From NCBI RefSeq assembly GCF_949628265.1, contig NC_088790.1, positions 21,704,545 to 21,768,544 of the forward strand: a stretch of DNA of 64,000 nucleotides, given 5' to 3'. The stretch is from Cloeon dipterum (taxonomy: Eukaryota > Arthropoda > Insecta > Ephemeroptera > Baetidae). The notes beneath the pieces are model-generated. The model saw only the letters and a program-made list of their open reading frames with translations. It did not search any database and was not told the DNA's origin. Below, piece after piece: positions 33,512 to 39,353 of the stretch (the first letter of the stretch is position 1; every line of letters starts with the position of its first letter). The position numbers and the translations under genes were made by a program.

Positions 33512-33517
33512 TTTATT
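33512..33517 (-). terminator. Poly(A) signal of the caspase-NACHT-ankyrin gene
   Basis: TTTATT on + (AATAAA in sense) 232 nt beyond the stop at 33749; the first good signal after the stop. Confidence 0.5.
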
Positions 33518-33748
33518 TATTTCAAAACAATTTAAAATTTCAAACTAAAAACATCATTTTGAGGTCTATATGCACACACAAAATTTAAATACAACTCATG
33601 TTACGCCAAAAATTAAAATTAATAGCTAAATGTCAAATATAAAAAGTAAAAATTATTCCAAACAGCACCAAAAACATGTTAATCATCTTCTTCCTGTGTC
33701 AATATAATTCGAATAATTCAATCACGGGTGACAAAAACAATATGTACA

Positions 33749-36700
33749 TTACGCACCAGTCCTAAACTTTAATTTTTGATTCATTATGCGGCTAACAAGG
33801 CGATTCCTGATTTCTTCGTTGCTTATGTTATCAACGAACGACTCCGGCGTTTTTCCATTGAAGGATGGCGCAAGCAGGTCCAAATGTTGGAAATCTAAGA
33901 AATAATCGACTATATCGTCAATGCCCCACTGTGTGGCTCTAGTAATCGGACTAAACTCGCTCTCGTCTTTACAATTGATGTCAGCGCCCTTTTCTTCCAC
34001 TAGTCTCCGAACGAGCGCCAAGTTCCTTTTCTGCACAGCGGCCACCAAGGCAATGCTCGCTTCTTCTGCTTGCGTCTGTGCGTCCATGAGTTGGAACAAT
34101 GCCTCGATGCTTTCAGATTTTCCTGCCATGATTGCCGCCGTCAACGGAGACCTGCTGAAGGCTTTGTCGAGGTAGGAATGGGTCGGATTGGCTCCCATTT
34201 GTACAAGATCGCGCAGGAGATCGATTTTTCCGCCTCTGGCAGCGCCAGTGAGCGCTCCATCCAGTTGCCTCTGGTATCCGTCGGAAGGAGCTGCTCCCAA
34301 AATCATCTCCAGCTCCTTCCTCAGGCCCATTTCCGCGGCTTTGCAGGCAAGGATGTAGTGCTCGGGGTGGATCAAGCCAAAAGTTGGAGTCACATCCGCG
34401 CCGCGCGTAAGCAGATATTCGAATACAGCCGTGTGGCCACCCTCAAGTGCCATCTGCACTGGTCTCTCACTGCGAAAACTCCTCGCGTCGATGTCTACAT
34501 CCTTCTGGAGGAGTAAGATTCTCACCACCCCCAGATGCCCGTTTTGAGCAGCGCAGTGCAGGGGAGTGTGATTAAAAGGGTAACAGGTTATGGATGGCTG
34601 TGCACCCTTTTTCAACAGCAGTTCGACTAAAAGCAAATCACCGTTTTCCGCGGCGATGTGCAAGGCACTGCCTTTGTCCGACACTAGATTCACGTCTGCC
34701 CCTTTATCGATGAGATGCACAATGCACTGGATAAACGGGTTCAATTCTCCATCACTTGGGGAAGCGATTGTCATCTCCCTCGGTCGAGGATGAAATGGTG
34801 CGTCTCTGTTGATATTTTCTTTCTCGAAGAGCTGGCACTTAGGAACTCGTCCGTGGGAATTTTCGTACCACTCGGGTGACCTCTGTGCTAGCACGATGAT
34901 CGGAGTCTGCCCATTCATCAGGTCCAAATCAACGGAAAATCCCCTTTCCAGGAAAAGTTTCAATACGTCGATTATTTTTTTCTTGTGATTTATCGCACGT
35001 GCTAAAGCGATCCACATTGCATGCTTTCTCATTTCGACCGTGTATGGAAAGTTCAAAAGATAATCTAAGCAGCCGATGTGAGCGTTCATGGCCGCTTTGT
35101 CCAGAGCAGTCAGTTTCCCTACAGGCTTATCCTTTTCCAGGTGTTGCTCCTTGCTTTCCGCATAAATATTAGCATCGTGCTGTTTTAAAATTTCTAGCGC
35201 CTCCAACCGACCATTGGCTGCTGCGTAATGAAATGGAGTTTCGCCATATGTGTCTTCTGCATTGACATCTACTTTTTGCGCAAGTAGAAAATTGATGCAG
35301 TCAATACTATTGTGGGCGGCAGCTGTGTGCAAAGGTGTGTTTTTATATTTTGACGTCCAAAATTTTAAGTCAGCACCGTTTTTGTGTAAAATTTCTAAAG
35401 ATTCAAGTTGGTTTAACATACAGGCACCGTGCATAGCAGTCAATCCATTGACACAGAGGTGGCTTTCATTCACCGCGCTTGGTATATTCGCTAGAAGTAT
35501 TCGCAATAAATCAGTTTTCCCGTGCACTGCAGCGTGATATAATGGAGAAAATTCGTATCTGTCTTTCTTCACATCTAAATTTTCACCCATCAAATATAGC
35601 ACCATCTCAGAGTGGCCACCGATTGAAGCTATCTCAAGAGCTCGCTTCCTCATTGCTAGTCTCTGCTCGCTAGCTGTGTTTTCGATCAAAATCTTTAGGC
35701 ACTCCAAATTTCCTCGTTTAGCAGCGTGATCCAGTGGTATTCTGTGATGTTTATCCTCCTTGGTTATTAGATGGGGATGAGTTTCAACTATTATTTTGGC
35801 AATTTTACACAAATTTCTTTTCGCTGCTAAATGTAAAATCGTGCTGTCTTCCTCGGTACGGCAATTTTTTGGTTCGAGTAAATCAAGCTGGGCTCCCAAC
35901 TCGAGCAAATGCAAAGCAATAGTTTCATTGGAGAAGCAAGCGGCGTACAAAGGGTAGTACTTGTAAGTATCGTTTCTAAATTCGTATTCGAATGGAGTGT
36001 TCAATAGGGTGCTTATGTCTCCAAAATTCTCCTTAAGTTTCGACTCGAAGAAGAGTTTGAACAGGTTTTCGTGGCCCTCTTTGCAAATGTACGACATCAA
36101 ATCAATCTTGCGCTGCTGCAATGATTTGGTCGTGATCATTTCTAGTTTGGTAGCTTCAATCTTTTGCGCCATAGCATCCCCTAAAAAGAAGCTGTTTATG
36201 AACGACCGCACTTGATCGAATTTTCGTTGCAGCAATAAGTCACTCAGTTGAACATTGTCTATGTACTGGCACAATGGCTCGTTCGATTTAATTAAATTGT
36301 GTCCACATTTTGAGAGGAACAAGAGGCTTAGAAGAAACTCCGCGTACGACTGATGTTCAAATGTGACAGACTCGAGTTTCTTTTCTTCATTAATTGAAAA
36401 TCTGACAATCCCAATGTGGTTGATATGGTGCTGGTATCTTAGTAATTCTCTTGAAACCTTCTCATCGTTAAAGAAGTACGCCGCCACGGTTAGTTCAATC
36501 AAAAGATCCATATTCTCCAATAATGATGATTCGTAATTCTTATGTGACCTGTTCGTTCCACTGTAGTCTTCCAAATAAATATCAATCTTGCTCAAGACAA
36601 AGTGGTAATACAGAGAATTGAGGCCACCGTCGAATGTATGCACTTCATCGCCGATTTCTGCTATCAACTTGAGCTGCATTGGCGTTCCTGTGAAGTCGCC

Positions 36701-39353
36701 TTTGCCATTGCCATTGAACTTATCCAGCAGAGCGGCGCACTCCTCGTCGTCCTTGTACAAAAATATTTTCAAGAGCTTAATTTGCTCCTCTCGGGTCAGC
36801 GGACATAGATCTAATATTCCGAGCAAGTTAATCTTGTCTCTTATGCTTTGTTCTCCATGAATCCTAGTCGTAATCCAGAGGGGCAGGTACGCCTCGTTCA
36901 CCTGACGCAGAAGCTCAGATGCTATCTTTTCGTACTCGGGGCAGATTTCATCAAAGCCATCGCCGAGTAGAAAAACATTTCGCTCACTAATTTTGGTTTT
37001 TAATGCTTTGCACCGCTCAGAGTCTTTTTCCAAAACTACTTCTAGGAATTCGATATAGGAATCTGGCCTCGGCTTGAACTCTCCGTTTGAATCAATTTTA
37101 AGTTGACGGAAGTAGTCACTGTATTTTTTGAATGAGAAATCTATGACGAGAAATGTGTCTGGTAGTGTTTCTCGGAGCTTTTTTGCTAGCTCGTGCGTCG
37201 CCGCAGATTTGCCCATTCCAGTTCCTGATCTTAGCAACCACGAGCGGATTGCAGATCGATCATTTGGTTTCATTGCCACATCATTCATATTCGTCGCCAA
37301 TTCCTCGAACGAAATTGACGTTTCGGCTTCCTCCGACATGAATTTAGGCACTATGTACGCATTTCTGCAAGGCTGAAAGTCGAGAAGATGGCTCAATGTG
37401 CTTACAACCTGGAATTGAATTTCGCCACCCGGCTCCTCGTGCCGGCGCAACAGTTTCACTATCGCCTCTTGCAAGCTGAGTCCGCTCTTCAATTCTGGGT
37501 TCTGCAGCTCGTTTATCAATCCACTCACGATGTTGTCTTTCTCGGATTTGGCCACTCCGAAAAATGTGAAAATTCCTCCATGATTGTTCCCTTCCACAGT
37601 AAAATTGGCTGGAGTCTTTATAAAAAAGAATGAAGAAATTGTGTGTTCGGTTTTTTCAAATGCATTTTAGGGTTTACTTACAACTCCAATTAAAGGACCG
37701 TCACCTCTGCAGCCGCCGTCCATGAAGAAGAACAGCTTGGGCTTTCCAGCCAGATCTTTGGACTCTGTTCCGATGAAAGAATGCGTTATCTCATTCACAG
37801 AAACTTTTGCGTCGTCCGCAGTGGCGATAGTCAATCCGAGCTCAGCGTTATTAAGCAACCTCGCCAAAACGCAAATAGCAATTGCGCCATCCTCTTTCAG
37901 CCCTGAATTATGCACAGAAGTCACTGCAATTTGGAAATTTAAGAATTGAAATATATTTTCATAAAGTCAATGACATACCTTCTTTTAGGATTTTGGTCAA
38001 GCGTGACGCGCTATATATTCTTGTTTCAAAGTCCAAAAATTGGAAACTAGTCTGCATTTCCTTCGCTACAGAAGCGTGATTTTTATCGTAGAATATCAGA
38101 GCGCGCCCTCTTCTGAACGGAAGAAGTTTAGTGGATTTCCAAGTGTAGAAATGATATCGATCCATATTGATCAACTGATCAGGAGCAGTTTTCGAAAAGG
38201 CGTCCGATTTTTCTTTCAACGGAAAACTAAAAATAAATAAGTGGTTTAGATTTAAATTTTGTACTTAATAGTATATTGTACCCCAATACCTTGATACAGT
38301 AAATTCATTATGTTTGGAGTACTGAAGCTGTGGTGTTTGCCCAATTGCTCTGTCTATGGTAGTACTTTCGCAAATACGCCTTTTCACCCTTGTCAGGAAT
38401 ACAATCAAATCCAAGTCCTTGCTCATGGAGTCGAGCTCTGTGCAAAGTGCCGTCACCAGCCAGGTGCCCGCCGCATTCCTCTGCGCTCTCACAGCTTTTT
38501 GCATTTAATCGCATAAGTTGATTTGAATTGTTTGATAAATTTTATTTAATATAAAGCACCTTCAACTGTTGAGTAGAAAATCACAAAATTTTCACAATTC
38601 GGCCCGATGGAAAACCACATCGATTTATTTTGCACAGGATTTTTGTCGAGTGTTTCCTTGGTTGCTGGCAGGCGAATTTCTCCACTGACGCCTCTACATG
38701 GCTGAAAAATATTTTATAAAAGGATTTAATTATATTTTTCTTCTTTTTTTCTCACTCCGAAAAAAATTAGCTTTATGCTGTCCTGCAGCTGAGGAATCCC
38801 CTTGAGTCCATTCCAGACGTCATCAGTGTGGTACTCCTCGAACGGCTGGCTGGGGTCTTTTGGTTCTATCGCTGGATGGTCCGTGAAGATAGTGCCACCT
38901 GAGGCGCCGTGCGACAGGATGATTAGGATGAACATATCCGGCGTCTCAACATCTTTTGCAGATAAAAAGTTACTATCCTTATGAATAAATTGCTTTTAAT
39001 TTTTCATACCTTCGCCATTTTCGGCGAACAGTGAAAATAACTTTCCATCGGTATTTCTTAAACGGCTCAAAATCTCTTCCTTGGTCTTAGACTTTAAATC
39101 TTTGAAATGGCAGTTTCTTCTCGTGAAGGTATCTCGGAGCTTTGAGACGTCTGCTTGGTTTCCTGCTCTCGAATCGTCAGTATTTTCAAACTCGTGGTGA
39201 ATGACTAACACCCATACTCTACGGTAAAAAGTTAAATGCAAATTAAAAAAAATCAGATATGAAAATCAATATCATTATTATAAATAACCTTGCTGGTTTA
39301 TCCTGTTTGGTCGGCAAATATCCAAACGTTTTATCGATATCCTCCTCGTTCAT
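33749..39353 (-). CDS. Tandem caspase-like / NACHT NTPase / ankyrin-repeat protein
   Basis: 1724 aa in eight exons: 39353-39289, 39218-39010, 38952-38756, 38701-38560, 38494-38290, 38226-37979, 37923-37682, 37615-33749; phases agree. Caspase domain 1 (about 20-275): VWVLVIHHEFEN start strand, catalytic H106 in LSHG, C159 in FFGPCRG (in place of QACRG), then a p10-like part (GTWLVTALC, LTRV). Domain 2 (about 310-515): RALIFYDKNH, C427 in GGCRG, but A376-R377 where SHG should be, then GGIFTFFG and VVSTLSHLLDF as a p10-like part. NACHT: Walker A SGTGMGKS (K572), Walker B LLGDGFDE (D655, E659), LWITTR, TPMQLKLIAE (about 749-758), FEHQSYAEF. About 19 ankyrin repeats follow from about residue 985 to near the C terminus. 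Domains 2 to the end lie partly and NACHT-ANK wholly in the last exon. Likely an intracellular STAND sensor joined to a protease. The start is uncertain: the first exon opens at 39374 in frame, so an upstream coding exon may exist. Confidence 0.82.

Follow-up and report, generated by a model that had tools for sequence, protein, structure and literature searches.

The locus and its gene

We analysed a stretch of 64,000 nucleotides (nt) from the ephemeropteran insect Cloeon dipterum (RefSeq assembly GCF_949628265.1, contig NC_088790.1, forward-strand positions 21,704,545 to 21,768,544; hereafter the window), in which a single gene on the minus strand joins caspase domains to a NACHT-type NTPase and ankyrin repeats. 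According to our gene model, the eight exons between 39353 and 33749 encode a protein of 1,724 amino acids (aa) with zero internal stops, and the seven introns measure only 54-70 nt each. From the N- to the C-terminus, the protein consists of a caspase domain, a caspase-like domain, the NACHT domain and the ankyrins: an architecture that we regard as nearly certain. The coordinates, strand and motifs listed in a first-pass annotation of this DNA, as well as its single open frame over the exon chain, agree with the gene model. The arthropod origin that it proposed for the protein fits the genome, which contains 94 matches to Chitin_bind_4 and five to 7tm_6 (insect odorant receptor). Odorant-binding proteins gave a single match, a number that says little for genes built from many small exons. 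The features are as follows.

33749..39353, minus strand: complete coding region of 1,724 aa in 8 exons (gene model; 7/7 introns GT-AG, no stop)
39289..39353, minus strand: exon A, short N-terminus with a candidate start codon; no death-fold domain by Pfam
38290..39218, minus strand: exons B-E (39218-39010, 38952-38756, 38701-38560, 38494-38290), first caspase domain, aa 24-263 (Pfam PF00656; caspases in the PDB; His/Cys conservation)
37364..38226, minus strand: exons F, G and the start of H (38226-37979, 37923-37682, 37615-37364), linker and second caspase-like domain, a predicted pseudocaspase, about aa 302-520 (Pfam PF00656; profile against the PDB; lost His/Cys)
33749..37615, minus strand: exon H (3,867 nt), a single unbroken frame running from the p10-like terminus of the pseudocaspase through NACHT to the ankyrins (gene model)
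36044..37363, minus strand: NACHT NTPase and the region after it, about aa 521-960, with Walker A GTGMGKS from 37225 and DGFDE from 36961 (family alignment, PDB and Pfam comparison)
33962..35851, minus strand: array of 13 clear ankyrin repeats, aa 1025-1654 (Pfam; repeat scan)
33516..33521, minus strand: hexamer resembling a poly(A) signal, beginning 228 nt past the stop codon (hexamer scan)

The frame of exon A stays open upstream as far as an acceptor-like AG just before 39374, and reading through the intron between exons G and H runs into a stop. Because exon H alone encodes the end of the pseudocaspase, the NACHT domain and the ankyrins, the join of these three parts is independent of splicing. 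An Rfam scan of the window gave no family at gathering scores.

A large family of caspase-NACHT genes

The window gene belongs to a large tandem family. The 190-Mb genome contains 101 places that match PF05729, and the window's own NACHT region as query yielded 95 matches; the 101 places, the window and four further places from the latter search make up the set of 106 NACHT matches used here. At least 90 of the 106 have a match to the first caspase domain (E ≤ 0.1) that begins at a distance of 1.3-4.4 kb upstream in the same orientation, whereas 1,000 rotations of the caspase positions produced 0.3 such associations on average and never more than 7. The figure of 90 is likely to be a lower bound because 150 of the 154 first-caspase matches were listed and 137 of 228 candidates scored. 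Among the contigs of the assembly, which include five of 33-43 Mb, C4 carries 49 and C2 carries 34 of the loci, and the open frames around the NACHT matches have a median length of 1,234 aa and reach up to 2,699 aa. Some NACHT matches may represent fragments, or they may belong to different NTPase families.

For 22 fetched NACHT loci we made our own splice-aware alignment, and the double-caspase module was present in 21 of them. These loci are a non-random sample: nine were taken since they had a caspase match in the vicinity, L037 and L038 owing to their closeness to the window gene, and 11 from the NACHT list; among the 13 picked without regard to a nearby caspase, the module was found in 12. 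In 17 of the 21 module-bearing loci, the end exon of the second caspase could be read cleanly on into NACHT. The 22 genes for which residue counts are given below are the window gene and these 21 loci. Alignment A1 comprises 18 of the 22 rows (L025, L030, L031 and L037, with an unclean or broken exon H, were left out), whereas the 11 rows of A2 and the 10 rows of A3 were picked by hand for diversity. The automatic models of the paralogs are unreliable at their N-terminal ends and in some very small exons; moreover, the L025 model mixes exons from two adjoining caspase copies, and those of L021, L027 and L038 read through one short intron.

The introns are shared as well: Five of the seven in the window gene occupy the same alignment column in the same phase in 18, 19, 20, 22 and 22 of the 22 genes, one lies two columns off the position found in 16 genes with identical phase, and the position of the last is common to six genes including the window gene. 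Since the paralogs share both the module and the introns, a chance fusion is excluded. It might be argued that a caspase gene and a NACHT-ankyrin gene were wrongly joined, since the second, third and fourth introns of the window gene also contain AATAAA or ATTAAA hexamers. This is extremely improbable: exon H connects the pseudocaspase end, NACHT and the ankyrins, the introns are very short and mostly shared by 18-22 of the 22 genes, and the association of caspase and NACHT across the genome far exceeds that of the rotation control.

The first caspase domain is predicted to be active

The whole window protein matches Peptidase_C14 in two stretches (E 2e-24). Taken alone, the first of them hits PF00656 with an E of 1.5e-19, and the family was recognised in 10/10 rows of the first-domain alignment, with both the p20 and p10 parts present and profile positions 3-225 of 233 covered. 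Against the PDB, a phmmer search with the first domain matched caspase-3 and 3sir, a chain labelled 'Caspase' that we take to be an insect enzyme, and the best match of the family profile among PDB structures was to animal caspase-3 (E 6.6e-15). The catalytic histidine and cysteine, His106 and Cys159 in the window protein, are kept in all 22 genes; the S1 arginine of p20 is present in 21 of them, and a serine or threonine precedes the conserved W block in all 22; the assignment of the aligned columns as catalytic or S1 residues is our assumption. Taken together with its conservation, we predict from the sequence that the first caspase domain is active.

The second domain is a probable pseudocaspase

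The second domain on its own is more distant from known caspases, with an E of 1.9e-5 and 24.9 bits against PF00656 (cut-off 21.4), and C14 was found in 5/11 second-domain rows at E ≤ 0.1. Its profile matched the large subunit of an ancestral effector caspase in the PDB with an E of 2.5e-11, and caspase-8 chains were among the other matches, suggesting that the domain does have the caspase fold. The catalytic histidine is present in 0 of the 22 genes and the cysteine in only one, the window gene itself, in a degenerate stretch where the placement of the columns is approximate. Thus, the second domain appears to be a conserved pseudocaspase in the 22 genes compared. Of the two caspase-fold domains initially proposed, both are supported as such by the two Peptidase_C14 stretches; since the second lacks the catalytic residues, they do not form a pair of proteases.

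The NACHT domain and the question of origin

The first-pass annotation also proposed a search with hidden Markov models for Peptidase_C14, NACHT and ankyrins. Such a search recovers C14 and the ankyrins above their cut-offs but misses NACHT in the window protein, for which Pfam reports no NACHT family and whose row gave no family at all when the aligned region was tested. This row is the sole miss: the aligned NACHT region is PF05729 in 17 of the 18 family rows, the GK of the P-loop and DGFDE are invariant in all 18, and the 18 sequences that the family profile matched in the PDB at E ≤ 0.01 are without exception animal NLRs (NAIP, NLRP3, other NACHT-LRR-PYD chains and NLRC4). The family alignment, the PDB matches and PF05729 in the relatives settle the identity of the domain despite the Pfam miss, and the NACHT-type NTPase originally read from the motifs is confirmed in this way. 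No leucine-rich repeat (LRR) family was found in the window protein by Pfam at E ≤ 1. Because it carries C-terminal ankyrin repeats and no LRRs, we consider the protein NLR-like rather than a prototypical NLR; the N-terminal effector or adaptor domain of NLRs is represented by a caspase in place of CARD or PYD.

Caspase-STAND proteins exist in bacteria, as stated in two reports (PMC4986451, PMC8195603), and the gene might thus have been acquired recently by horizontal transfer. We consider this very improbable: the gene has seven introns, its first caspase is closest to animal caspase-3, and its NACHT domain resembles only animal NLRs among solved structures. Moreover, when bacterial and archaeal genomes were scanned with the NACHT profile, one of 589 pattern matches was confirmed among the matches listed, a NACHT that is 27% identical and whose open reading frame (ORF) contains no caspase as judged by eye. 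The scan of prokaryotic genomes hence lends no support to a bacterial origin.

The ankyrin part evolves fastest

Five ankyrin families exceed their Pfam cut-offs in the window protein, and a simple repeat scan located 13 clear repeats with scores of at least 34. Three extra matches at aa 255, 788 and 938, which score 21-23, do not stand out from the background: 50 shuffles of the sequence gave 1.1 matches on average and 3 at most. The presence of ankyrins was correctly recognised at the outset, whereas the suggested number of about 19 could not be reproduced; weaker repeats beyond the 13 may exist.

To describe selection, we determined the ratio of nonsynonymous to synonymous substitution rates (dN/dS) in pairs of paralogs; these pairs share loci and are thus not independent, and columns missing in the window gene were left out. 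For the window gene and its nearest paralog L037 the ratio is 0.10 in the first and 0.12 in the second caspase, with saturated dS values of 1.45 and 1.34. Over 14 pairs it ranges from 0.10 to 0.54 in the first and from 0.12 to 0.47 in the second caspase, and both domains therefore appear to be under purifying selection. As the second domain shows these values despite its lost catalytic residues, the pseudocaspase seems to be kept for a non-catalytic role. Exon H after aa 500, which consists mostly of ankyrins, gave 0.33-0.85 in the 12 pairs with a readable exon H, more than NACHT and the second caspase in 12/12 pairs and more than the first caspase in 11/12. Within the repeats, we compared the proportions of nonsynonymous and synonymous differences (pN and pS) in five pairs that share no locus: At register positions 1, 2, 3 and 11, which we take to be the usual binding-surface positions, pN is 0.27, 0.32, 0.21 and 0.32 and about equal to pS, as compared to a pN of 0.12 and a pS of 0.27 at the positions set as core. 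The fast positions were chosen after inspection of the table, and the comparison is a descriptive one. These values suggest that change is fastest in the ankyrin part and falls mainly on positions presumed to be involved in binding. For fungal NLRs, PMC4986451 reports positive selection on the ankyrin repeats that acts predominantly at the concave surface.

L037 (G000:C5:9162700-9170699), whose NACHT domain is 70-75% identical to that of the window protein, has a frame that is broken inside NACHT, leaving an exon H ORF of 208 aa; it may be a decaying copy or contain a sequence error. With such a close relative, one may ask whether the window gene is itself a dead relic or an artefact of the assembly. 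This is hardly credible for a gene that is open over 1,724 codons and whose caspases differ from those of L037 at the low dN/dS ratios given above, even with dS saturated. We have rejected both the pseudogene and the two-gene reading on the basis of exon H continuity, the open frame, the shared introns and selection.

A proposed one-chain sensor with its own protease

We suggest, with a probability of roughly 0.6, that the family consists of tandemly expanded NLR-type sensors in one chain, in which oligomerisation switches on the protein's own protease. In this model, the ankyrin repeats would read a ligand, and the caspase would be held inactive at rest. Ligand binding would trigger assembly of the NACHT domain, which would oligomerise by binding ATP, and this clustering would bring the N-terminal caspases to a higher local concentration. 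Caspases function in dimeric form. A partner with a caspase fold may complete the catalytic domain: this could be the pseudocaspase of the same chain, similar to c-FLIP-L and procaspase-8, or the catalytic domain supplied by an adjacent protomer; alternatively, the pseudocaspase might lock the resting state. For the former possibility there is a precedent: c-FLIP-L and caspase-8 form an active heterodimer, according to PMC11121540 and PMC4819448. The active protease would then cut itself or local substrates and thereby cause cell death or an inflammatory-type response, and the roughly 90 or more tandem-amplified relatives with their faster-evolving ankyrin surfaces would provide a repertoire. 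The architecture would indeed allow NACHT oligomerisation to unite protease domains, as was proposed initially; oligomerisation, activation by partner pairing, the immune role and the substrates are all features that we infer. It is tempting to speculate that this insect lineage possesses some 90 or more one-molecule inflammasomes, each with its own caspase, a pseudocaspase that licenses or restrains it and a diversified ankyrin arm, a picture to which we give about even odds.

Several observations weigh against this model. First, 16 of the 106 NACHT matches have no first-caspase match among those listed, and L032 (G000:C5:24459000-24468999) has a NACHT domain in an open frame of 1,214 aa without a caspase module by alignment, possibly an uncoupled sensor; it was omitted from the family alignments (its last-round score was 172, whereas the remaining 22 rows scored 1,660-2,238). 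Second, profile-profile comparison of the two caspase domains gave no match. As the profiles do not recognise each other, a recent internal duplication is unlikely and was rejected as their source, and their pairing is not to be argued from it. Third, the selection pattern has exceptions: the first caspase reaches a dN/dS of 0.54 in the pair L018-L034, the ankyrin part (0.33) falls below the first caspase (0.36) in the pair L021-L038, and position 7 of the ankyrin repeat, a structural one, also has a pN of 0.21 (pS 0.35). Finally, the active site of the first caspase is unusual: the string is GPCRG in 19/22 genes, GSCRG in L021 and L038 and APCRG in L019, QACRG occurs in none of the 22, and the p10 S1 arginine is found in 9/22 genes, the window gene among them. 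A caspase with QACRG is encoded at locus L001 of the same genome.

Because of the replaced QACRG and the infrequent p10 arginine, catalysis or aspartate specificity may differ from that of ordinary caspases. The first caspase might even be a scaffold or a protease of altered specificity rather than an ordinary Asp-specific enzyme; we consider this unlikely, given the His/Cys pair, the p20 S1 arginine and the S/T before the W block in all or nearly all genes, the purifying selection, and the presence of both S1 arginines in the window protein.

The purpose of such sensors might also lie elsewhere: the same protein could act in cell death during development, in the recognition of self or mates, in the control of symbionts or in an internal genetic conflict, with ankyrins that bind host proteins. 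For NLR-like genes of fungi, a link to forms of non-self recognition outside the defence against pathogens has been reported (PMC4986451). A tandem expansion to about 90 or more copies with the fastest change at presumed ankyrin binding positions is, on the other hand, typical of conflict receptors, among which those of immunity are included but do not stand alone. We regard a non-immune function as somewhat unlikely, and an immune or cell-death role of the one-chain sensor, as already suggested in the first-pass annotation, would be the more probable reading.

Relation to known systems

The proposed sensor combines features of several known systems. With the Apaf-1/Dark apoptosome and caspase-9/Dronc it would have in common that a STAND NTPase drives caspase clustering; that machinery relies on NB-ARC and WD40 domains and on separate chains linked by CARDs. 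CARD gave one match in the genome (G000:C3:11478003-11478242), in a six-frame search that may miss split exons; this locus is a candidate for the ordinary apoptosome pathway, and a single match fits a design without CARD adaptors. Animal NLR inflammasome receptors such as NAIP, NLRC4 and NLRP3 have the same kind of NACHT domain with sensor repeats at the C-terminal and the effector side at the N-terminal end, but the family described here has ankyrins instead of LRRs and a built-in protease instead of one recruited by CARD or PYD. The caspase-8 : c-FLIP-L heterodimer also places a catalytic caspase beside a pseudocaspase, and caspase-8 chains are matched by our pseudocaspase profile. However, the pair in the window protein is covalent, in the order active then pseudo, and no DED was found; their pairing is a prediction.

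Enzymatic effectors fused to a STAND NTPase and repeats are known from all-in-one proteins of bacteria and fungi, such as the metacaspase-STAND proteins of bacteria and PNP_UDP-NACHT-ANK (PMC4986451); in contrast to these, the insect family has an animal-type p20/p10 caspase, introns and an additional pseudocaspase. In amphioxus, shortcut proteins (TNFR-caspase and LRR-caspase) fuse a receptor part straight to a caspase in an animal, and neither NACHT nor a pseudocaspase is mentioned for them in the accessible text of PMC2575513. Among cnidarians, the NACHT partners named in the available part of PMC8260672 are CARD, death domain, TIR and others, and a caspase protease is not among them. CASc appears among the domain abbreviations in a figure legend to a chart of sponge NLR genes (PMC12909245).

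In a survey published in 2024, arthropod NLRs are described as lacking an N-terminal effector domain, and arthropods are placed outside the phyla in which an inflammasome is possible (PMC11508797); NACHT is stated to be absent in Drosophila (PMC2575513). The 106 NACHT matches, at least 90 of them with an upstream caspase, contradict this picture at least for this insect. We found no description of caspase-NACHT-ankyrin proteins in arthropods in the open-access PMC literature as far as it was accessible, a scope that leaves most subscription papers and preprints aside, and the main text of a paper on Cloeon (PMC7250882) contains neither the word 'NACHT' nor 'caspase'. If our interpretation is true, an NLR system without adaptors would exist in a phylum surveyed as having no NLRs with effectors. 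It would make testable whether sensing and execution by a protease can be one molecule in animals, and which role a pseudocaspase plays when it is fixed to its partner.

Other observations

A search of the genome with gasdermin, which had no positive control, gave no match, and no telomere repeat was seen in 240 bases at each of two contig ends. First-caspase matches in G000:C3:8346194-8618904 and G000:C1:20967493-20968127 have no NACHT match within 7 kb on their 3' side; they are perhaps caspase-only relatives or members with a diverged NACHT. At L025 (G000:C1:41632500-41642499), two successive sets of first-caspase exons precede one NACHT, with more matches just upstream, which may reflect a partial duplication or a neighbouring gene. 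Finally, L026, L028, L029 and L031 each have one long intron (about 1.3-2.5 kb by model) in or just before the second caspase, as compared to about 50-110 nt for most others.

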